Positions 30,080 through 39,901 of a stretch of DNA of 50,894 nucleotides are shown here, one piece after another. The notes beneath the pieces are model-generated. The model was not told the DNA's origin and searched no databases. It was given only the letters and a program-made list of their open reading frames with translations. Each line of letters starts with the position of its first letter. Position 1 is the stretch's first letter. The DNA is from an uncultured Clostridium sp. GTDB lineage: Bacteria; Bacillota; Clostridia; Lachnospirales; Lachnospiraceae. The stretch covers positions 1-50,894 of the forward strand of contig CAMWYM010000008.1 in NCBI GenBank assembly GCA_947178475.1. The letters are read 5' to 3'. Position numbers and translations under genes: made by a program.

Positions 30080-31093
30080 ATGAAGTTTGCAATTCTGGCA
30101 CCGGGAAAAATCGCCCAAAGCATGGCTAAGGCAGCAGTGGGAATACAGCAGATGAGTGGAGATATTACAAAAATATCGGATTCCAAAGAGAACAAGAGTA
30201 TAGGCGGAACACAAATGGAGCTCTATGCAGTTGCATCCAGAAGCCTTGACCGTGCAGAGGAGTTTGCTGCGCAGTGGGGATTTGAAAAGGCTTACGGATC
30301 CTATGAAGAAATGTTGGAGGATGAAGCGATAGAGCTTGTATATGTTGCTTCTCCCCATTCTCATCACTATCAGCATGCAAAGATGTGCTTAGAGCACGGC
30401 AAAAATGTTCTGGTGGAGAAGGCATTTACAGTAAATGCGAAGCAGGCAGAGGAGTTGATAAATCTTGCAAGAGAAGGGAAGCTTTTACTGGCAGAGGCAA
30501 TCTGGACAAGGTATATGCCTAGCCGGAGCATGATTGATGATATAGTAGCCAGCGGAATCATTGGAGAACCGGTTTCCCTGACTGCAAATCTTGGTTACGC
30601 AATGAAGTATAAGGAACGTCTGAGAAATCCGGAACTGGCAGGCGGTGCACTGCTGGATGTAGGTGTATATCCGATTAATTTTGCCATGATGGTATTTCAT
30701 AAGGAAATAGAGAAAATAGACACTTCGGTGGTGATGTCCCCGGAAGGAGTGGACTGGATAAACAGCGTAACCCTGACCTTTGAAGATGGAAAAATGGCGG
30801 TGCTTCACAGCAGTATGCTGACACCAACGGATCGTTTAGGTGTCATTTATGGCGAGAAGGGATATATTGAAGTACAAAATATCAATAACTGTGAGGAAAT
30901 CCGGGTGTTTGACACAGAGCATCAGATCATTGCATGTCATAAGGTGCCGGATCAGATTAACGGATATGAATATGAAGTCATCTCTTGCATGAAGGCAATG
31001 GAGGAAGGGAAAGTGGAATGTGAAGAGATGCCCCATAGTGAAACATTGCGGGTGATGAGACTGCTGGATGCAATCAGGGAAAAATGGGGATAG
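30080..31093 (+). CDS. Gfo/Idh/MocA family oxidoreductase
   Basis: 337 residues. The N-terminal Rossmann strand FAILAPGKIAQSMAKA carries a shortened GxGxIA-like dinucleotide loop, and an insert of about 20 residues (22-45) precedes the second strand, LYAVASRSLDRAEEFA. VYVASPHSHHYQHAKMCLEHGKNVLVEKAF contains the catalytic EK(P/A) motif. The C-terminal domain has GGALLDVGVYPINFAMMVF, typical of the family. It is a NAD(P)-dependent sugar or cyclitol dehydrogenase; substrate unknown. GGAGG precedes the ATG. A GNAT gene follows after 4 bp, so these form one operon with rlmD. Confidence 0.9.
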   Translation: MKFAILAPGKIAQSMAKAAVGIQQMSGDITKISDSKENKSIGGTQMELYAVASRSLDRAEEFAAQWGFEKAYGSYEEMLEDEAIELVYVASPHSHHYQHAKMCLEHGKNVLVEKAFTVNAKQAEELINLAREGKLLLAEAIWTRYMPSRSMIDDIVASGIIGEPVSLTANLGYAMKYKERLRNPELAGGALLDVGVYPINFAMMVFHKEIEKIDTSVVMSPEGVDWINSVTLTFEDGKMAVLHSSMLTPTDRLGVIYGEKGYIEVQNINNCEEIRVFDTEHQIIACHKVPDQINGYEYEVISCMKAMEEGKVECEEMPHSETLRVMRLLDAIREKWG

Positions 31094-31097
31094 AAAT

Positions 31098-31547
31098 ATG
31101 ATTAGAAATATGAAGCCGGCAGATATTCCGGCAGTTATGGAAATTTGGCTGAATACAAATATCAAAGCACATGTTTTTATAGCTTCTGATTACTGGAGAA
31201 AAAATTATGGTCTGACAAAGGCTATGATGTCTGATGCGGATATATATGTTTACGAGAGGGAAGGAAGTATTTATGGATTCGTTGGTCTGATGAAGGATTA
31301 TATAGCAGGAATATTTGTAGACGAAGCGTATCAAGGTTCAGGTATCGGAAAGTCCCTGCTTGATTATGTGAAGCAGCAAAAGGATGAGCTGGTCCTTCAT
31401 GTATATGAGAAAAATAAAGGTGCAGTAAGGTTTTATCTTCGGGAAGGCTTTGTCAAGGAAGAGGCAGGAGTGGAGGAAGAGAATCAGGAAACAGAGTACA
31501 GGATGCGGTGGAAAAAAGATGAGCTTAGAGAAAAATCAGGAATTTGA
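31098..31547 (+). CDS. GNAT family N-acetyltransferase
   Basis: 149 residues from the ATG at 31098, which follows the previous stop by 4 bp. IRNMKPADIPAVMEIWLNTN is the family N-terminus. AGIFVDEAYQGSGIGKSLLDYVK contains the acetyl-CoA loop (QGSGIG), and VYEKNKGAVRFYLREGF is motif B. The acceptor is unknown. Its 3' end overlaps the rlmD start by 29 bp, pointing to coupled translation. Confidence 0.9.
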   Translation: MIRNMKPADIPAVMEIWLNTNIKAHVFIASDYWRKNYGLTKAMMSDADIYVYEREGSIYGFVGLMKDYIAGIFVDEAYQGSGIGKSLLDYVKQQKDELVLHVYEKNKGAVRFYLREGFVKEEAGVEEENQETEYRMRWKKDELREKSGI

Positions 31548-33033
31548 ACTTACAATAGAGGACATGGGAAACGAGGGGGAAGGCATTGGACACCTTGATG
31601 GGATGGCTGTTTTTGTGAAGGATACCGTTCCTGGTGATGTGGTGAGGATTAAGATTATTAAGGTAAAGAAGAATTATGCTTATGGCAGGCTGATACAGGT
31701 GATTTGTCCCTCCGATTACCGGGTAGAGCCGATTTGTCCGCATGCCCGAAGGTGTGGGGGCTGTACCATTATGCATGTAAGCTATGAAAAGCAGCTTGCA
31801 TGGAAGCAGGATAAGGTAAAGAACTGTCTGCAAAGGATAGGCGGTATTGCGGATATAGAAGAGAAAATGGAGCCGATTATCGGAATGGAATATGGCGGAA
31901 GTGCAGGGGCAGATATCTCAAAGGGAAATAAGGATGTTAAGGATTTTCCAGCAATCCGGTATCGAAATAAAGCACAGTTTCCGGTACGGCGGGATAAAGC
32001 AGGAAAACTGGCAATCGGATTTTATGCGGGAAGAACCCATTCGGTTATTGATACAGATATTTGTTATCTGCAGGATGAAGTAAATGATGAAATTATAAGA
32101 AGGCTTCGCTGTTTTATGGAAAAATATCAGGTGGAAGCTTATGATGAGGAGCGCCATACCGGGCTGGTGAGGCATATTTTAACCCGTGTGGGAAGAAGGA
32201 CCGGAGAGGTTATGATTTGTCTTATCCTTAATGGAGATAAGTTAGAGGGAAAAGGCGAAAAAAAATATTATGAGAGCAGGAAAGCTCATGTAAAGCAGGG
32301 GAAGGTTATGCCAAAGGAAGCTCTTCGGAATGTGGAGAAGGAATTTGTGGAAGAAATGATGGATATTCCCGGAATTACAAGTATTTCCCTTAATGTGAAT
32401 AAGGAAAAGACAAACCGGATTCTAGGAGCGCATTGCCGTACAATCTGGGGACGCGATTATATTACCGATTATATCGGAAATGTGCAATATCAGATTAGCC
32501 CTTTGTCTTTTTATCAGGTGAATCCGAAGCAGACGGAAAAGCTTTACAGGAAGGCACTGGAATATGCGGATTTAAATGGAGAGGAAACCGTATGGGATCT
32601 CTATTGTGGAATCGGAACGATCTCACTGTTTCTGGCTCAGAAGGCGAAAAAGGTTCGTGGTGTGGAAATTGTACCGGAAGCAATCGAGGATGCCAGGAGA
32701 AATGCCAAGATAAACGGTATTCAAAATGTAGAATTCTTTGTGGGGAAGGCCGAAGAGGTTTTGCCGGAGCAGTATGAAAAAACGGGGGAGCGGGCAGATG
32801 TGATTGTGGTAGATCCACCTAGAAAGGGCTGTGATATAGTTGCCATTGAAACGATGATAAAAATGGCACCGAAGCGGATTATTTATGTGAGCTGTGACCC
32901 CGCAACGCTGGCGAGGGATGTGAAGATGCTGGTGGCAGCGGGATATGAGTTGAAGAAGGTTTGTGCAGTTGACCAGTTTGGACATGGGGGTCATGTAGAG
33001 ACAGTAGTAATGCTTTCCTACAAAATCAGATAG
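31519..33033 (+). CDS. rlmD: 23S rRNA (uracil-C5)-methyltransferase, RlmD/RumA type
   Basis: 504 residues from the ATG at 31519 (GGTGGA upstream). An N-terminal TRAM domain (about 3-62) is followed by iron-sulfur Cys C73, C79 and C82 (CPHARRCGGC) and probably one more near 185. The AdoMet domain has VWDLYCGIGTISLFLA. The DPPRKGC motif and the nucleophile in YVSCDPATLARD are present. The protein ends at HVETVVMLSYKIR. In many Lachnospiraceae relatives I recall a further ~100 residues; here that extension exists downstream but is out of frame by one base and carries a stop. The enzyme is probably still active because the catalytic core is whole. Confidence 0.9.
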   Translation: MSLEKNQEFELTIEDMGNEGEGIGHLDGMAVFVKDTVPGDVVRIKIIKVKKNYAYGRLIQVICPSDYRVEPICPHARRCGGCTIMHVSYEKQLAWKQDKVKNCLQRIGGIADIEEKMEPIIGMEYGGSAGADISKGNKDVKDFPAIRYRNKAQFPVRRDKAGKLAIGFYAGRTHSVIDTDICYLQDEVNDEIIRRLRCFMEKYQVEAYDEERHTGLVRHILTRVGRRTGEVMICLILNGDKLEGKGEKKYYESRKAHVKQGKVMPKEALRNVEKEFVEEMMDIPGITSISLNVNKEKTNRILGAHCRTIWGRDYITDYIGNVQYQISPLSFYQVNPKQTEKLYRKALEYADLNGEETVWDLYCGIGTISLFLAQKAKKVRGVEIVPEAIEDARRNAKINGIQNVEFFVGKAEEVLPEQYEKTGERADVIVVDPPRKGCDIVAIETMIKMAPKRIIYVSCDPATLARDVKMLVAAGYELKKVCAVDQFGHGGHVETVVMLSYKIR

Positions 33034-33340
33034 CCTAATCAACGTAAAAGTGGAGTTTGGCGAGGGTGAGGGCAAAGTGCCTTTGGATGCAATTGCAGAA
33101 CGAGCGAAACAGTATCAGTTGAAACCGAAAATTACATATAAAATGATACAAGAATAAGTGGAAAGAAACTATGGATTTAAGGTACATGCAGCGTACATTG
33201 CAGAAGTAAAACGGTCTTTGGGGTTGGCAATGTATGATGCACCTAATGCAGTGGAAGAATTGAAACAACCGAGAAAACATCCGCCGAAAGATAAAGTCGA
33301 GGCGATAAAAGATGCACTCAAATATTTTGAGGTAATTTGA
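33034..33340 (+). pseudogene. Broken C-terminal extension of RlmD
   Basis: After the rlmD stop, the +1 frame reads SDSLINVKVEFGEGEGKV and continues to a TAA at 33155-33157, then from GTG 33158 to KVEAIKDALKYFEVI at 33340. Removing one A from the run near 33024 and turning TAA into a Tyr codon would give one continuous extension of rlmD of about 110 residues. Two separate lesions argue against programmed frameshifting. The motif set VKVEFGEGEGKVPLD, KVHAAYIAEVKRSLGL and ELKQPRKHP is one I recall from C-termini of this enzyme family in gut clostridia; this is memory, not a search. Confidence 0.75.
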
Positions 33341-33465
33341 TGGAAGAAAGTATATTTCAAATTGCAGAACAGATAAATCAACTGCATAAGATAGCATAAT
33401 CTACTAATTAAGGAAGTAGTGGATATGATGTTAAGGAAGTTCATGATATGATTACAGGAGGAGCA

Positions 33466-34323
33466 ATGGGAAAAATAATTAAGGAAACTATTCATGCGAA
33501 AGGTATTGACATTGGCATATATACAACAAATTTTGAAAGTGAATTTATTTCTTTGACGGATATTGCGAAATATCGAAATGAAGATGATCCAAGGTTTGTA
33601 ATTCAGAATTGGATGCGTAATAGAAATACTATCGAATTTTTGAGTGTGTGGGAAGAATTGCATAATCCAGATTTTAACCGTGTGCAATTCGAGGCGGTTA
33701 AAAATGAAGCTGGGTTAAATCGTTTTGTAATGACACCAACGAAATGGATTACACAGATGAATGCTATTGGCATTGTTTCAAAATCAGGACGTTATGGTGG
33801 AACATATGCTCATAGTGATATTGCGATGTCTTTTGCAACTTGGATTTCTCCAGAATTCCAGTTATATATTATGAAGGATTACAGGCGATTAAAGACGGAT
33901 GAGAATAGTCGATTATCTTTGAGCTGGAATTTGAATAGAGAAATTTCTAAGTTAAATTATAGGATACATACGGACGCAATTAAGGAAAATTTAATTCCGC
34001 CAGAATTGACATCAGTTCAGATTGCTTACACATACGCAAATGAAGCAGATATGTTAAATGTTGTTTTGTTTGGAAAGACAGCGAAGCAGTGGAAAGATGA
34101 GAATCCAACTGAAAAAGGCAATATGCGAGATGTAGCAACATTAAATCAGTTGTTAGTACTTGCAAATTTGGAAAGTTATAATGCAGTTCTGATTAAACAA
34201 GGGAAGAATCAAAAAGAACGAATGGAATTACTTCGGCAGTTGGCGGTACAGCAGTTACAGACATTGGAGGAAGTAAGCCTAAATAATTTGCCGAAATTCG
34301 AAAATGATATACAGAGGCTTTAG
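33466..34323 (+). CDS. KilA-N domain protein
   Basis: 285 residues. The N-terminal half (ISLTDIAKYRNEDDP, VIQNWMRNRNTIEFL, then GIVSKSGRYGGTYAHSDIAMSFATWISPEFQLYIMKDYRRL) is a KilA-N DNA-binding domain, common in phages and genomic islands. The C-terminal half is helical and resembles the usual companion region (INYRIHTDAIKENLIPPELT-like). GGAGGAG lies just before the chosen ATG; an in-frame ATG at 33448 with AAGGAAG upstream is the alternative. It is the first gene of an AT-rich accessory block. It could regulate the block or sense phage infection; I infer no more. Confidence 0.85.
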   Translation: MGKIIKETIHAKGIDIGIYTTNFESEFISLTDIAKYRNEDDPRFVIQNWMRNRNTIEFLSVWEELHNPDFNRVQFEAVKNEAGLNRFVMTPTKWITQMNAIGIVSKSGRYGGTYAHSDIAMSFATWISPEFQLYIMKDYRRLKTDENSRLSLSWNLNREISKLNYRIHTDAIKENLIPPELTSVQIAYTYANEADMLNVVLFGKTAKQWKDENPTEKGNMRDVATLNQLLVLANLESYNAVLIKQGKNQKERMELLRQLAVQQLQTLEEVSLNNLPKFENDIQRL

Positions 34324-34374
34324 ACGATATAAATAGGATAAAATTGTAATATAGAATGAAATACGAGGTAGATT

Positions 34375-34917
34375 ATGAAATATGAACTTTTCTTTTTGAA
34401 CAATATACATGATTCTATGGAGATGGTAAATGTGGAGTTAGATCCATTTCTGGATTTATACAGCGAAGGGTGCTTTGATGATTTAAGCCTTAAACATATA
34501 ATATTGAATTTGGCAAATTGTTTAGAATTGCTTATTAAATATAGATTGGAACAGGAGCATTGGACACTTATTTTTTTTGATACGAATAAGGCTAAATATT
34601 CAAATTATTTGGACGGGGATTTTGTGAGCGTGGATATTAAATCAGGAACTTACAGATTAAAAAATATATGTGATGTTAAGTGTTCATTTGTTGCATGCAC
34701 ACAAATTTATCAATATAGAAATCGTCTAATGCATTATACATTAAACAGTACATTTGAGCAGATAATCAAAGATGTAGTTGAAGCGATGGGCGAAGTAGCA
34801 GAGTTTGTTGAAATTGAAATTATGCAGTATTTGCCTGAGAAGGCTCAAGAAGATTTTAAAAATTCAATAGATAATTATAGAAAATATGCAAAAGTTCTAA
34901 AAGAATTAAAAATGTAA
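34375..34917 (+). CDS. Candidate HEPN-domain RNase, unknown family
   Basis: 180 residues, mostly helical by composition, no signal or TM segment. The stretch IYQYRNRLMHYTLN contains R115-N-R-L-M-H120, an RX4H motif with the polar residue after Arg that marks HEPN ribonucleases. An upstream helix LKHIILNLANCLELLIKYRLE (about 39-59) fits the first long HEPN helix. GAGG stands 7 nt before the ATG. It lies 51 bp after the KilA-N gene and 360 bp before a RloC-like ATPase, all in one direction. It may be a toxin or an abortive-infection effector; the domain call rests on the motif and context only. Confidence 0.55.
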   Translation: MKYELFFLNNIHDSMEMVNVELDPFLDLYSEGCFDDLSLKHIILNLANCLELLIKYRLEQEHWTLIFFDTNKAKYSNYLDGDFVSVDIKSGTYRLKNICDVKCSFVACTQIYQYRNRLMHYTLNSTFEQIIKDVVEAMGEVAEFVEIEIMQYLPEKAQEDFKNSIDNYRKYAKVLKELKM

Positions 34918-34933
34918 GACGGTTTCTTAAATT

Positions 34934-35262
34934 TTGTGGGAAAAAGGGAATACCGTTGAGACGGTAGTGATTTTGTCTAAACTCAAAACTAAACGACATG
35001 TCGACATTGAAATACATACTGATGAATTGGATTTGACTTCAGCAGAGAGTAAAGCCACTTATGCAGAACTCAAACAATATGTGCTTGATAAATATGGTTT
35101 GAAAGTATCCAGTTTGAACATTGCCAGATTAAAGCAAAGTGTGGTATTATCGAGCGTGAGAATTATAATAAGGCAAAGAACGAAAATGTTAAGCAGTCAA
35201 ACTGCACAGAGGAAAAAGAAAATGCAATAAAAGACGCGTTTAAACATTTTCAAATGATTTAA
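34934..35262 (+). pseudogene. Second broken RlmD-type C-terminal fragment
   Basis: It starts as GNTVETVVILSK, like the end of the RlmD core (HVETVVMLS), and continues HVDIEIHTDELDLTSAESKAT and LKVSSLNIARLK. Near 35133 one base is missing: the next frame then reads CGIIERENYNKAKNENVK and ends IKDAFKHFQMI, stop at 35260-35262. It differs in sequence from the first remnant but has the same layout. No methyltransferase core precedes it. It looks like the scar of a recombination at an rlmD 3' end. Confidence 0.7.
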
Positions 35263-35275
35263 ATGGGAGGATAAG

Positions 35276-37648
35276 ATGTTAAAAAAGATAAAGTTTAAAG
35301 GAGGCTTTTTTAATGAAGAAAAAGAGCTGAAATTATTTATGAATGAAGATAGAATATCACTTCTTTACGGAAAAAATGGTTCTGGAAAGAGCACAATTTC
35401 TAATGCTGTGCGTAAGGCAAAAGGAGACGTAGTTGATGATATAGTCCAAGCTACATTACTTGATAAAGAAGATATGGCTTTTGTGGATACTCAGTGTATT
35501 CATGTGTTTAATGAAGATTATGTGAGTTCACGTGTTAAAATACGAGATGATGGGCTAAAGGCAATTATTCTTTTGGGTGAGCTAGGTAATCTTGAAGATA
35601 AAATATTGGATTTGGAACTTAGAATTGAAGCTGAATCTAACAGAAATATGGAGCTTAAAACAGCTGCTGGCGAATATAAAGACAAAGATAATATAAAGTC
35701 TCCAAGCAACTGTAAAATTCGGATTAACCTTGGATTGTCTGGAAATGGGCATTGGGCTGAACGAGAAAAGATTATTAATAATGGTAAACGCAATGCTAGC
35801 GTTACGGATAAAGTAATTGATTCTATTATTGCGTTGCAACCTGCTGAAACATTGGCGGATTTAAGAAAACGTTATGAGGAGAATCTTCAACTGTTAAGTC
35901 AGGTAATAGCTAATGAAGCGGTTCAGATTAGAAGTACTGTGAAACTGAATGTCCCATATAATGAAAAGGTATTACAAAATCTTCTTTCACAGAAAGTTGA
36001 AAGACCTACGTTGTCAGATCGTGAGCAATATCTTCTTCAGCTTATTGATGACGGGAAATTAGATCAAATTAATGAAATGAAGTCAGTATTTTCAAAAGAA
36101 AAAACAAAGAAATGTCCTTTTTGCTTTCAGGAAATCTCGGATCAAGGTAAACGAGATTTGATTGGAAGTATAGAGAAAGTATTATCGAAAGAAGTTGATA
36201 TTCACGAGAAAAACCTCAAAAAATGCATCATACAGGAATTGAACGTTGATTTTTCTGGCATGGATGTCTTAAATTCACCTAATTATATGAAATGTAAAGA
36301 TGTAGTGGAAGAAATTAATAAGGAGATATTTAAGATACGAGAAATTATTCTTAAAAAGATTAACCATCCATATACACCTATTACTGATTTTGAGAGCTAC
36401 CTGATTGATAAACTTGAACAATATGAGTTGCTTAGGACTAAGCTGCAGCAGGAAATAGAAACTTACAACAATGCAGTTAAAAAAATTGAAACGCTTAAAA
36501 GAAATCTCACAACTGATAATGCAGCCATTGCACATTATGAGGTTTCTAGAGATATTAAGTTATGGAAGCAAGCCTTGGTGGATCAGAAGAAAGCTGATGA
36601 AGCATTAAAAGAATCTGACGAGAAAATCAAAAATCTCAATGATGAGCTGAATGTTTTAAAATCTCGAAAGAAAAATATAAAAATAGCAGTCAGCTTGATT
36701 AATAAGAGTCTCAGATATGTGTTCTTTTCAAAGAATAGATTAGAAATCAAAGTTGAGAATGATAAATATGTATTGTATTCCCACGGAAAAACAGTAAAGC
36801 CTAACAATGTGTCTGTTGGTGAAAGAAATATTATTGCTTTATGCTACTTTTTTACAGAACTGATTATGAATCAGGAGGCGAAAGACGGGTATTCAAAAAA
36901 ACTAATCCTTGTTATTGATGATCCCGTATCAAGTTTTGATTTTGAAAACAAAGTGGGAATTATGTCACTGCTGAAAGCTAAGGTAGCCGATATTATTAAA
37001 ACCAATCCAGAAAGCCAAATTCTAGTGATGACACATGATATTCAGTGTTTATATGATCTTCAAAAAATTGGAGAGGAGGTTTGTAACGAATATAAGAGAG
37101 AAAGCAACGGACAAAAGAAAGTTACATATGCTTGTTGTGAATTGAAAAACAAAGAGATTATCCCATTCAGTTATACAAAACGAAACGAATATTCTGAGAT
37201 TTTGAAGACGGTATATGATTATGCTTGTGGTAAGAATGAGAATGACGCTCTGCTTGTTGGGAACTCAATGCGACGAGTGATGGAGGCATTCTCAACATTT
37301 GTGTATAAAAAAGGAATAGCAGAGATTTCCTGTGATGATACGATTTTACAACAGATTGGAGATAAAGATTACATTGATTATTTCAAGAATCTAATGTACA
37401 GGCTTGTGCTTAATGGTGATAGTCACATGCTAGAGAGAACAAATAGTCTGGATGACATGGATTATTTGTATTTTTTAAGTGATGAAGAGCGACAAAGAAC
37501 TGCACAGGAAGTTATTTGTTTCATTTATTTATTAAATGAGAGACATGTTTTGGCACATTTGGAAGGAAAGCAAAACATTGAAACCAACATTCAAAAGTGG
37601 TGCGCAGACATAAAAAGCTTTTGTGTAGGTGATGAAGTAACGGTGTGA
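35276..37648 (+). CDS. RloC/PrrC-like AAA ATPase, candidate anticodon nuclease
   Basis: 790 residues. Walker A is YGKNGSGKST (31-40). The ABC-type signature is SVGERNIIAL (about 512), Walker B LILVIDDPVSSFD (about 544) and the switch His VMTHD (about 586). Long coiled coils flank CPFC (280-283), which resembles a Rad50/RloC zinc hook. The C-terminus has R666-x3-E670 and a His at 717 (LVLNGDSH), the order R-x3-E...H of the PrrC/RloC tRNA-nuclease centre, although the E-to-His distance (47) is longer than PrrC's. Length fits RloC. GGGAGG precedes the ATG. It probably cleaves tRNA or another RNA during phage infection. A DNA-repair-type SMC ATPase is the alternative. Confidence 0.7.
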   Translation: MLKKIKFKGGFFNEEKELKLFMNEDRISLLYGKNGSGKSTISNAVRKAKGDVVDDIVQATLLDKEDMAFVDTQCIHVFNEDYVSSRVKIRDDGLKAIILLGELGNLEDKILDLELRIEAESNRNMELKTAAGEYKDKDNIKSPSNCKIRINLGLSGNGHWAEREKIINNGKRNASVTDKVIDSIIALQPAETLADLRKRYEENLQLLSQVIANEAVQIRSTVKLNVPYNEKVLQNLLSQKVERPTLSDREQYLLQLIDDGKLDQINEMKSVFSKEKTKKCPFCFQEISDQGKRDLIGSIEKVLSKEVDIHEKNLKKCIIQELNVDFSGMDVLNSPNYMKCKDVVEEINKEIFKIREIILKKINHPYTPITDFESYLIDKLEQYELLRTKLQQEIETYNNAVKKIETLKRNLTTDNAAIAHYEVSRDIKLWKQALVDQKKADEALKESDEKIKNLNDELNVLKSRKKNIKIAVSLINKSLRYVFFSKNRLEIKVENDKYVLYSHGKTVKPNNVSVGERNIIALCYFFTELIMNQEAKDGYSKKLILVIDDPVSSFDFENKVGIMSLLKAKVADIIKTNPESQILVMTHDIQCLYDLQKIGEEVCNEYKRESNGQKKVTYACCELKNKEIIPFSYTKRNEYSEILKTVYDYACGKNENDALLVGNSMRRVMEAFSTFVYKKGIAEISCDDTILQQIGDKDYIDYFKNLMYRLVLNGDSHMLERTNSLDDMDYLYFLSDEERQRTAQEVICFIYLLNERHVLAHLEGKQNIETNIQKWCADIKSFCVGDEVTV

Positions 37649-37760
37649 TTATGATTGTATTATATTCAATATGAACTAAGGATGTAGCCAATACTTAACC
37701 ATAGACAGGTGTTAAGACAAAACAAATTATTATCTGGGTCAGTAGCTGAAGTCCATTGAA

Positions 37761-37941
37761 TTCTAACATTTTACTATTGAACACGATATGGAAATAGGTT
37801 TGGACAAAAATAAGCAAGGTGAGAGCGTATGCCTGCTACATTGGAGGGATTCTCATGTACCTCCTAATACAGTTACAGTATATGCTGACAGTCAGGTGGG
37901 ATATGATTTTGAGCATAGTGGGGAAAAGGAGCGTGTTTGAA
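37761..37941 (+). pseudogene. Open fragment of unknown origin upstream of the macrodomain gene
   Basis: An uninterrupted frame of about 60 codons (with an internal ATG near 37788 but no ribosome site) reads like protein: GESVCLLHWRDSHVPPNTVTV, then YADSQVGYDFEHSGEKERV, stop at 37939-37941. It overlaps the start of the macrodomain gene by one base. I do not recognise the family. It may be the tail of a lost island gene. Confidence 0.3.
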
Positions 37942-38781
37942 ATGGATGCAATGGGAAAAACAGATATTCTGTTGGAGAAATTAAAAGAGGCTTCAGTGGA
38001 ATACAAGGGGATTGAAACGAGTGGATACAGTTTGGAGGAAAAGAAAAATGCAATTCGTTCACTGATGAATATCCGTATGCCGGGGGAACTGCCCGATGGA
38101 TTGCTGGACTTGCAGGATGATTACTTGCAAGAAGAATTGAAAGCAAAAGGTATTGTAACTTTGGCAGATATTCCAACAATAGAGGAACAGTTTAACAGTA
38201 AATCCTCCCATGCCGGAAAAATATCGCTCTGGCAGGGGGACATTACAAGCTTGAAGGTCGGTGCTATTGTAAATGCTGCCAATTCACAGATGCTGGGATG
38301 CTTTGTACCCTGTCACAGGTGTATTGACAATGCGATTCACAGTGCGGCGGGGATGCAGCTTCGGGAAGAGTGCAGTCACATCATGAAACGAAGACGGCTG
38401 AAATATGGCAGAAGCTATGAAGAGCCGACAGGCACAGCCACTTTGACGAAGGGCTATAATCTACCCTGTGATTATGTGATTCACACCGTGGGACCGATTG
38501 TGTACCATAGCTTGAATGATATGCTTTGTCAGGATTTGCAAAACTGCTATGAAAATGTTTTAAAATGCTGTGTGGAGCATAACATCAAATCCGTTGCGTT
38601 CTGTTGCATTTCAACAGGGGAATTTCATTTTCCGAATGATAAGGCGGCGAATATTGCAGTGAACACGGTGACAGGTTTTTTGACGGGTCATGATAATGCC
38701 TTTGAACGGATTATTTTCAATGTTTTTACTGATAAAGATCGAATAATTTACGAAGAAGTTTTAGGGGCGATTTATAACTAA
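37942..38781 (+). CDS. Zinc-containing macrodomain protein-ADP-ribose hydrolase
   Basis: 279 residues from the ATG at 37942 (AAGGAG ten bases before it); a longer open frame to 37819 lacks a site. ISLWQGDITSLKVGAIVNAANSQMLGC is the macrodomain ADP-ribose-binding start. CFVPCHRCIDNAIH carries the Cys/His zinc ligands of the SirTM-linked Zn-macrodomain class, which removes ADP-ribose from modified proteins. DYVIHTVGPIV and AFCCISTGEFHFPNDKAA complete the fold. Family members usually stand beside a class M sirtuin and a lipoyl carrier; neither is here. The next gene, 22 bp on, is an aldo/keto reductase, so the pair is likely co-transcribed. Confidence 0.88.
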   Translation: MDAMGKTDILLEKLKEASVEYKGIETSGYSLEEKKNAIRSLMNIRMPGELPDGLLDLQDDYLQEELKAKGIVTLADIPTIEEQFNSKSSHAGKISLWQGDITSLKVGAIVNAANSQMLGCFVPCHRCIDNAIHSAAGMQLREECSHIMKRRRLKYGRSYEEPTGTATLTKGYNLPCDYVIHTVGPIVYHSLNDMLCQDLQNCYENVLKCCVEHNIKSVAFCCISTGEFHFPNDKAANIAVNTVTGFLTGHDNAFERIIFNVFTDKDRIIYEEVLGAIYN

Positions 38782-38803
38782 ATCTTCCCGTTAGGAGAGA
38801 AAA

Positions 38804-39901
38804 ATGATGGAGTATAGAGTAAATCAACGAACAGGAGATAAAATCAGTACAATCGGACTGGGTACCAGCTATATCGCTGAATCAAGCGAAAAAAAGGCAG
38901 TAGAGGCACTGATCTATGCTTATGAGCATGGCATCAATTATGCTGATCTTGCGACAGCCGGGGCAAAGACGTTTTCTTATTATGCAACGGCATTGGGCAG
39001 TGTCCGGAAGGAAATGCACTATCAGGTACATTTTGGAGCAAATTACGAAACCGGGGAATATGGTTGGACGACAAAGTTGGAGACGGTAAAGCGGCAGATT
39101 GACTGGCAGTTATCCACGCTGAAAACAGATTATATTGATTATGGATTTATCCATTGTCTGGATGAGGACAGCGATTGGAAAGCTTATCAGAAGAATGGAG
39201 TGCTGCAGTATTTACTGGATATGAAAAAGCAGGGAGTTGTGCAGCATATTGGCTTTTCTACGCATACCCCGTCGCTGGCACATCAGGTGCTGGATACCGG
39301 ATTGGTGGATCAGCTTATGTTTTCGATTAATCCGGGCTATGATTACCAGCATGGAGCCTATGCTAATGGAAGTGCTGATGAGAGAATGGCATTGTACCGG
39401 CGCTGCGAGATGGAGAGTGTGGGGATATCTGTCATGAAACCCTTTTCTGCAGGTCAGCTTTTGAATGAAAAGACTTCTCCCTTTGGCAGAGCGCTATCGC
39501 AGTATCAGTGTATTCAGTATGCACTGGATAAGCCGGGAGTTTTAACGGTATTGCCGGGGATTCGTGATGTGGAGGATGTAAAGCATCTGCTTGGCTTTTT
39601 TGATGCGACAGAGGAAGAACGGGATTATTCTGCAATTGGTTCCTATATGCCTGCGGATGCAGCAGGGATTTGTGTGTATTGTAATCATTGTCAACCCTGT
39701 CCAGTTGGTTTAAATGTGGGACTGATGAACAAATACTACGACCTTGCAAAGACTGGCGATACGATGGCAGCAGAGCACTATCAGAATATGGAACTTCATG
39801 CAGATTCATGTATTCAATGTGGGCATTGTGAATCCCGCTGCCCTTTTCATGTAAAGCAGATGGCAAGGATGGAGGAAATCAATTCCTTTTTTAACAAATA
39901 G
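38804..39901 (+). CDS. Aldo/keto reductase with C-terminal iron-sulfur domain
   Basis: 365 residues. The TIM-barrel part (about 1-275) starts KISTIGLGTSYI and has the family strand DYIDYGFIHCLDE and QHIGFSTHTPS. The C-terminal domain binds two 4Fe-4S clusters by CVYCNHCQPCP and CIQCGHCESRCPF, as in COG1453-type ferredoxin-fused reductases common in anaerobes. The substrate is unknown. The first ATG (38804) and the second (38807) are equally placed behind AGGAGAG. It follows the macrodomain gene and is the last gene before a convergent two-component operon. Confidence 0.9.
   Translation: MMEYRVNQRTGDKISTIGLGTSYIAESSEKKAVEALIYAYEHGINYADLATAGAKTFSYYATALGSVRKEMHYQVHFGANYETGEYGWTTKLETVKRQIDWQLSTLKTDYIDYGFIHCLDEDSDWKAYQKNGVLQYLLDMKKQGVVQHIGFSTHTPSLAHQVLDTGLVDQLMFSINPGYDYQHGAYANGSADERMALYRRCEMESVGISVMKPFSAGQLLNEKTSPFGRALSQYQCIQYALDKPGVLTVLPGIRDVEDVKHLLGFFDATEEERDYSAIGSYMPADAAGICVYCNHCQPCPVGLNVGLMNKYYDLAKTGDTMAAEHYQNMELHADSCIQCGHCESRCPFHVKQMARMEEINSFFNK

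Follow-up and report, generated by a model that had tools for sequence, protein, structure and literature searches.

We describe here an accessory island at the 3′ end of the methyltransferase gene rlmD in an uncultured Clostridium sp. (Lachnospiraceae; assembly GCA_947178475.1, contig CAMWYM010000008.1, forward strand), of which a stretch of 50,894 nt, hereafter the window, was analyzed. The island very probably consists of two tandem insertions at a short core sequence in rlmD, both without a gene for a large serine recombinase (LSR), and these are best read as cassette-like, non-autonomous elements with defence-type cargo whose recombinase was presumably supplied in trans. Attachment (att) cores occur at 32995, 34955 and 37818, and the insertions have split the rlmD body from its native 3′ end (Table 1). 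No LSR gene lies between the cores in the window; because both units have kept both ends (attL and attR) while the recombinase gene is absent, together with other integration and transfer genes, we regard them as non-autonomous. The host gene matches the NCBIfam rumA/RlmD model TIGR00479 (E 1.9e-137) and shares one orientation with all island genes, and G+C content per 1 kb is 31–35% in the island and 41–44% beside it. The first-pass annotation of this DNA had already recognized an AT-rich island, repeated integration at the rlmD 3′ end with loss of the integrase, and the parts themselves (a KilA-N gene, a HEPN-type gene, a second RlmD-type fragment and an AAA_13 ATPase gene), all of which are borne out, but the right boundary is 37817, beyond the 37648 end first given.

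The sequence from 37818 onward is the native end of the window rlmD, displaced by about 4.8 kb. It shares 28 of 34 bases with the rlmD end of a congener (G221) in which the site is unoccupied, and the next best of 24934 places in the 12.5-kb G221 locus reaches 19 of 34. The extension that follows the rlmD core (tail A) is out of frame, with one TAA, as had been stated, but it is not the gene's own, as had also been supposed, since it arrived with the element. Remnants of the host's own rlmD were accordingly rejected as a source of the tail fragments, the native end being at 37818. Occupied and empty rlmD sites were also compared within the host genus, where 4 of 19 inspected loci (17 plus L088 and the window; some end at contig edges) carry tail A or the related tail B, and where empty ends read VETVALLSRPATE (G202) and VETVVLMSRKDK (G218), each followed by a stop. 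An assembly artefact was considered as well and rejected, because the same joins are found in independent genomes, including the single-contig genome G085. Directly where the displaced rlmD end stops, a macro-domain gene (PF01661; 37942–38781) begins; its frame has a longer GTG start at 37819, within the displaced end, that is probably spurious.

The KilA-N, HEPN-type and ATPase genes had been proposed to form one undescribed three-gene anti-phage locus, and indeed they adjoin on one strand in the window, and G085, which belongs to another genus, has all three. However, in G085 cassette 1 lies at rlmD2 and cassette 2 at rlmD1, two paralogues about 1.8 Mb apart, and in the window an att half-site and a tail separate the HEPN-type gene from the ATPase gene. 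We therefore reject the trio as a conserved locus, consider a single three-gene system very improbable, and conclude that two independent units are stacked in the window. Cassette 1 of G085 has a KilA-N protein of 81% identity, with one internal stop, a HEPN-type protein of 74% identity, and a right half-site with an indel. Its cassette 2 occupies an rlmD gene that shares 52% identity with the window gene, and there the ATPase gene, whose product is 93% identical, lies 3′ of a decayed tail B. Among 200 family genomes the ATPase (E 1e-60) was found in only three, namely the window, G085 and G179 (37% identity), which also speaks against a conserved trio. The right end of cassette 2 is the same in the window and G085 (TTTGGACAAAAATrAGCAA before the core). 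A similar sequence flanks an orphan tail in L035; read by eye, that flank looks LSR-like, and it gave no LSR match.

Table 1. Positions of the island features in the window; G085 and G221 are genomes used for comparison.
Feature	Position	Strand	Basis or content
rlmD, host gene, methyltransferase core intact	31519..33033	+	C-terminus VETVVMLSYKIR, then stop, after att core
Left att core GTAGAGACAGT inside rlmD, encodes VETV	32995..33005	+	Sequence, core alignment
Cassette 1, core to core, 1960 bp by sequence (1962 bp in the unit listing)	32995..34954	+	Tail A, truncated ORF92, KilA-N, HEPN, right half-site
Tail A remnant, ~115-aa portable RlmD/LSR C-terminal domain	33006..33340	+	Frame other than that of rlmD; one in-frame TAA
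Truncated ORF92	33340..33399	+	ATG overlaps tail stop as TGATG
KilA-N domain protein, 291 aa	33448..34323	+	PF04383, PADLOC PDC-S22
HEPN-type predicted RNase, 180 aa	34375..34917	+	RNRLMH at 115–120, ELLIK at 51–55
Right att half-site of cassette 1, 22 bp, TTTGTGGGAAAAAGGGAATACC	34933..34954	+	Alignments, pattern search, pattern-free test
Inverted repeat, 6-bp arms, spanning second att core, TACCGTTGAGACGGTA	34951..34966	.	Sequence
Cassette 2, core to core, 2863 bp	34955..37817	+	Tail B, RloC-type ATPase, right half-site; second copy in G085
Tail B remnant with VETVV core	34955..35262	+	One frameshift near 35145
RloC-type ATPase, predicted anticodon nuclease, 790 aa	35276..37648	+	AAA_13 PF13166
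Right att half-site of cassette 2: window TTTGGACAAAAATAAGCAA, G085 TTTGGACAAAAATGAGCAA	37799..37817	+	Window vs. G085
Displaced native rlmD 3′ end, GESVCLLHWRD...	37818..37940	+	Match to congener G221

Besides G085, cassette 1 recurs in L089, a Lachnospiraceae metagenome-assembled genome, and in Holdemanella porci (L167), where the unit has an intact HEPN-type gene and is followed by a plain rlmD end. The KilA-N/HEPN pair is thus intact in L167, interrupted by the KilA-N stop in G085, and accompanied by a broken or partial HEPN-type gene in L089 and L128; elsewhere the slot after KilA-N mostly holds another gene or none. In 40-base blocks, the DNA of the window and L089 is 85–100% identical through KilA-N and the shared parts of HEPN, from which L089 has lost about 310 bp, along with part of tail A. 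Identity is 97–100% at 34782–34901, 90% at 34902 and 80% in the core block (34942), and then 45–62% at 34980–35094 and 70–75% beyond; rlmD before the core is 52–87% identical.

Large serine recombinases recombine at the core GTnGAGACGGT in the rlmD 3′ end and exchange the C-terminal tails of RlmD and recombinase. In the join alignment this core is common, with some variants, to rlmD, to LSR genes and to the starts of orphan tails, and in three loci an LSR of 663–666 aa has tail A as its C-terminus. Tails A and B are homologous (30% identity, E 5.6e-5), and at E 1e-5 they match 70 and 84 of the 200 family genomes, respectively, the two queries cross-matching each other; judged by these protein matches, tails appear in family genomes more than chance would allow. 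Many matches are in-frame RlmD C-termini (open frames of roughly 480–750 aa), in agreement with the earlier view of the second fragment as an RlmD-type C-terminus. A further group consists of orphan frames, about 100–130 aa long, which start with the RlmD sequence VETVV and which, where the locus shows it, lie 3′ of an RlmD or LSR that already has its own tail. When the first eight codons are removed, tail A has dN/dS of 0.04–0.29 in 10 of 15 pairs with computable dS, most of the 10 being near dS saturation, which suggests that it is maintained as a protein domain. Tail A matched no Pfam or NCBIfam family but did match PHROG 27283, of unknown function, and a tail profile gave seven weak matches to solved structures, the best (E 0.013) to a ribosomal protein. 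In the phage collection, tail matches occur in 11 phage records; Streptococcus suis phage YS162 (L256, OP662530.1) has a uracil methyltransferase-type gene that ends in the tail domain.

At its right end, cassette 1 carries the half-site TTTGTGGGAAnnnGGTAATACC directly 5′ of the core. It first emerged from alignments made without using the half-site itself, and a pattern-free test, in which orphan tails 3′ of KilA-N were located solely by protein match, gave it again: in eight of nine LSR-less orphan tails the sequence before the core agrees with the 22-base half-site at 16–22 positions (in L100, at 3), and two orphan tails that follow an LSR score 8 and 11. Among 20000 random 22-mers, 78 reach 12 bases and the maximum is 15. 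With up to 7 mismatches in 33 bases, the pattern occurs at 26 places in the collected loci and at none in a Markov control of the same 1.54 Mb. A stricter search (32 positions including 3 N, at most 3 mismatches) found it in 13 of 397 family genomes and the reversed pattern in 0 of 397; 8 of these 13 half-sites have no LSR by two LSR queries. After the genome-search loci were added and loci duplicating contigs removed, there were 33 dereplicated copies, with a half-site-bearing KilA-N locus (L230) left out of the LSR and slot counts. Five of the 33 are LSR gene 3′ ends by two LSR queries (four by one), and 28 do not end an LSR gene. By a rough rule, the half-site is followed by a plain rlmD end or other non-tail sequence in 20 cases, by tail B type in 11 and by decayed tail A in 2, which indicates that A-type units sit mostly on empty or B-type sites; one of the plain ends (L221) looks like a decayed tail B. 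Counted from the central GA dinucleotide, the half-site has 25 bp with its variable part at positions 13–15. The half-site of an A118-family integrase likewise has 25 bp and a zinc-domain motif covering positions 16–24, according to the portion of PMC3783163 that concerns it, so the cassette-1 half-site may follow the A118-family layout.

A family of such units could be outlined from 26 loci. Both ends were placed in 18, none of which has an LSR match inside the unit, and unit length ranges from 1.5 to 6.9 kb. Genes usually follow the order tail A, ORF92 (overlapping the tail stop), KilA-N, one more gene, half-site. In relatives ORF92 is intact at about 90 aa; the window copy has lost most of it. 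In 19 of 28 loci, one or two ORFs of 85 aa or longer occupy the slot beside KilA-N; they form 14 protein clusters, to which L121 and L133 contribute two each (the L133 unit being unclear). The slot is empty by count in the other 9, which include L118, with a large gene beyond the stretch examined, and L089, with its broken HEPN. Slot genes comprise HEPN (window, L167), GIY-YIG/DUF4357 (PDC-S14), DUF4062, a gene matching AbiN (E 2.4e-12), a gene matching part of Upx (E 1.4e-25; about 215 of 1218 residues in the best stretch) and a weakly SIR2-like pair (PDC-S21, E 1.5e-7); those of L070, L119, L136 and L214 had no Pfam or PADLOC match at the thresholds used. An autonomous counterpart of cassette 1 is found in the rlmD1 array of G047, in a stretch that opens, directly behind one LSR, with tail A and closes with a second LSR bearing the half-site, before a plain rlmD end. 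In G047 (L074, 1–19501) and in L220 the arrangement runs RlmD, tail B, further sequence, LSR, tail A, further sequence, a second LSR and a plain rlmD end. The KilA-N units of L085, L095 and L119 occupy not rlmD but an LSR gene 3′ end, that is, the att site of another element.

Regarding the cargo, the HEPN-type product is predicted from its sequence to be an RNase. It has the motifs R115-N-R-L-M-H120 and E51-LLI-K55, whose R, H, E and K are invariant in three aligned sequences including that of the window. The HEPN superfamily is described, in the relevant part of PMC3710099, by R-x4-6-H in which the R is followed by a polar residue, frequently together with E-x3-[KR]. PADLOC assigns the protein to DUF3644 (E 8.1e-16), no Pfam family is better than E 0.15, three matches (one partial) occur in the 200 family genomes, and none in the phage collection at E 1e-5. 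The ATPase (AAA_13, PF13166, E 4.7e-57) is of RloC type and thus a predicted anticodon nuclease. RloC was outlined by Davidov and Kaufmann (2008), in the part available of PMC2610378, as an ABC ATPase with a CXXC zinc hook, borne on a coiled-coil insert that separates the ATPase halves, and an R-X3-E-X36-52-H triad, Ser often preceding His. The window protein is alike in ABC motifs, CXXC and triad and unlike in being cargo of an rlmD cassette: it has a Walker A motif at 32, the signature SVGE at 513, Walker B at 544, its sole CXXC (CPFC) at 280, and the C-terminal triad R666-X3-E670-X46-H717 with Ser before His, which is also present in the 93% and 37% relatives. Shuffling the last 190 residues 5000 times produced the Ser-preceded triad pattern 37 times, and no solved structure matched at E 1e-3. 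The earlier claim of RNA cleavage therefore holds at the level of families, as HEPN and RloC are both RNA-cleaving.

The KilA-N protein (PF04383, E 1.9e-19, 69.9 bits vs. a gathering score of 23.8) belongs to PADLOC PDC-S22 (E 3.9e-132) and to PHROG 2657, a transcriptional regulator; no solved structure matched at E 0.1. Its link to rlmD att sites is strong among close relatives. Read with 1.5-kb flanks, the link was present in 8 of 10 family loci whose KilA-N is at least 78% identical and in 1 of 20 with lower identity; among the best 80 genome loci the figures are 22 of 26 (90% or more), 22 of 36 (78–89%) and 3 of 18 (65–77%). KilA-N also occurs in 26 plasmid records, 25 with an identity under 60%. 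The protein might have a mobility role, since its gene immediately precedes an LSR in 8 of these best 80 loci (gap 18–47 bp in the 5 with the LSR frame listed). A RhuM-type gene, named by eye, takes the place of KilA-N before an LSR or an orphan tail (L074:7353–8372 and L070:724–1734). There is thus an almost even prospect that KilA-N and ORF92 form a mobility module serving LSR directionality or regulation, and that the last-slot gene is the only cargo. Both the near-constancy of KilA-N beside variable effectors and the RhuM-like gene in its place in L074 are in keeping with this idea, while 19 of 20 family loci with KilA-N of 48–75% identity have no rlmD link within the 1.5-kb flank, and PADLOC lists the family as a defence candidate. 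It is rather unlikely that the cargo serves as addiction (toxin-antitoxin-like) modules that maintain the element rather than as phage defence. HEPN domains do form a widespread toxin superfamily, as set out in part in PMC3710099, and KilA-N could partner each effector. RloC, AbiN-like and partly Upx-like cargo, however, belong to defence families, and a built-in zinc-hook switch has been proposed for RloC, for which a silencing partner is still possible (PMC2610378, in the part cited above).

Keeping this in mind, we propose the following course for the two cassettes. In autonomous elements of this kind the LSR gene runs across the att core into the tail of ~100 aa, and integration joins rlmD to the tail of the element and leaves the old end behind its right half-site; the window units were presumably inserted by a recombinase supplied in trans and might still be mobile. 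Cassette 2 (tail B and RloC) most likely entered first, followed by cassette 1 at the rlmD/tail B junction, an order suggested by the place of cassette 1, which separates cassette 2 from rlmD, and by the A-type units that sit on B-type ends; the reverse order is possible. The co-oriented island genes could be read from rlmD. Predicted promoter-like sites (38 in 31000–39000 vs. 28.1 expected, sd 5.3) and terminator-like sites (4 vs. 3.1 expected) were not used as evidence. KilA-N may act as a DNA-binding regulator or sensor and the HEPN-type protein as an RNase effector, RloC as a DNA-damage-responsive anticodon nuclease, and both nucleases would then halt translation in infected cells.

Several points weigh against units mobilized in trans. 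No excision or circular form was seen. The genome's own recombinase-domain content amounts to one distant hit (PF07508, 27%) at a contig edge; a second LSR query, which had no positive control, gave no match in this assembly, which is 90% complete. These copies may be fixed, because both tails and ORF92 are decayed. In the unit listing the left end was not placed in 8 of 26 loci, and most cassette loci were retrieved with a KilA-N query. Finally, the column profile of the 33 half-site copies, which is high inside the pattern, with differences clustering at −12 to −10, and mostly 0.1–0.7 bit upstream of −25, where conservation stops, is partly circular in that copies were picked by similarity inside −22 to +10; this is made up for by the pattern-free test, which gives the half-site independently.

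On a different account, the units would be dead relics of an autonomous integrative and conjugative or mobilizable element (ICE or IME) that lost its recombinase by deletion, i.e., ordinary cis-mobilizable elements (CIMEs), and the half-site would be a leftover LSR 3′ end. In accord with it, the window half-site reads by eye as LWEKGNT|VETV, in frame and as at LSR gene ends; about 55 bp upstream of the G085 cassette-2 half-site look like an LSR C-terminus, by eye only; the tails and ORF92 of the window are decayed; and CIME accretion has been published (PMC5704250, in part). Yet conservation ends at −25, in the copies and by eye in eight pattern-free loci, as for a binding site and not for a randomly truncated gene. 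The same compact layout also occurs with different effectors in many loci, and KilA-N proteins of 96–97% identity are found with (broken) HEPN, with DUF4357 or without an effector. Given this evidence, we think the relic account somewhat improbable and prefer cassette-like units inserted in trans.

Other cassette families may use the same rlmD core, because a second half-site family (GTACTG..AAATATT..TTTTGTGKGGATATGTTTTRATTTG) stands before orphan tails in L072, L076 and L077 and lies near DUF1016/YhcG nuclease genes (PDC-S02) at L076:11256–12281 and L072:12285–13301. A third conserved sequence (AAAAAATGTGTTCCGAT...) precedes the core in L015, L020, L048 and L057, although L020 starts differently; in three of the four (L020, L048, L057) it lies 3′ of a distant recombinase match (24–25% to the LSR).

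In our judgement, the significance of these findings lies in the accretion of integrase-less elements at rlmD, their recurring compact design and the defence-like genes in a changeable slot. A decayed gene end becomes a readable marker, with orphan tails and a 22-bp half-site marking the exact ends of small defence-type islands in Lachnospiraceae and relatives, and new effectors may be sought in the slot beside KilA-N. The findings also make it testable whether non-autonomous cassettes with borrowed recombinases are a route by which defence genes spread among gut bacteria, and they call for caution with a KilA-N family that is scored as a candidate for defence but may partly be a mobility gene.

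Among the literature hits that were listed, all from open-licence papers, we found no paper on rlmD defence cassettes or on this KilA-N/HEPN unit, which is weak evidence of absence; the text available of PMC12904643, on another serine-recombinase IME, does not contain the term rlmD. The rlmD hotspot and the tail swap are already known from streptococcal rumA elements and Erysipelothrix prophages. In streptococcal ICEs and IMEs, as far as the sections on rumA describe them, a serine integrase inserts in rumA, the 3′ parts of rumA and the integrase gene are reciprocally exchanged, and the att site lies inside the integrase gene (Ambroset 2016, PMC4701971; IME review, PMC5704250). The window units resemble these elements in host gene family, kind of recombinase and insertion at a short core, as well as in the half-site that cassette 1 has in common with LSR gene 3′ ends, but they are 2–3 kb in size and have no integrase. 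Furthermore, the streptococcal exchange changed the reading frame (PMC4701971, same sections), whereas the tail described here is a conserved, mostly in-frame domain under purifying selection. In Erysipelothrix, rlmD is a prophage site for a serine-recombinase element, in the account given in part of PMC12785378, but those elements are full prophages rather than small integrase-less units. CIMEs, defined in the pertinent part of PMC5704250 by attL and attR without an integrase and by stacking at one site, are closest in that the window units are likewise integrase-less, stacked and bounded by both att ends. Unlike the CIMEs described there, they recur as a family that shares one conserved half-site, combines a nearly constant KilA-N gene with a defence-like gene that can be exchanged, and is found at two rlmD paralogues and at LSR 3′ ends.

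The LSR of rlmD elements also matches CcrB models, below cut-off. Staphylococcal cassette chromosome (SCC) elements use Ccr serine recombinases and target the end of rlmH, an rRNA methyltransferase gene, and recombinase-less forms are known; the window units differ from them in target gene and att site, and SCC units are larger. Integron cassettes are small, have one recombination site and one or two genes, can be stacked, are read from an upstream promoter and are moved by a tyrosine recombinase. The units described here differ in depending on a serine recombinase, in lacking a local integrase platform and in that their mobility is presumed. As a tentative and rather doubtful extension of the likeness, gut Firmicutes might harbor an integron-like family of circularizable units with one LSR att site, a portable tail, a constant KilA-N as shared sensor or regulator and an exchangeable anti-phage effector; recombinases of visiting ICEs and phages would insert such units in trans and stack them at rlmD, where they would be read from the rlmD promoter.

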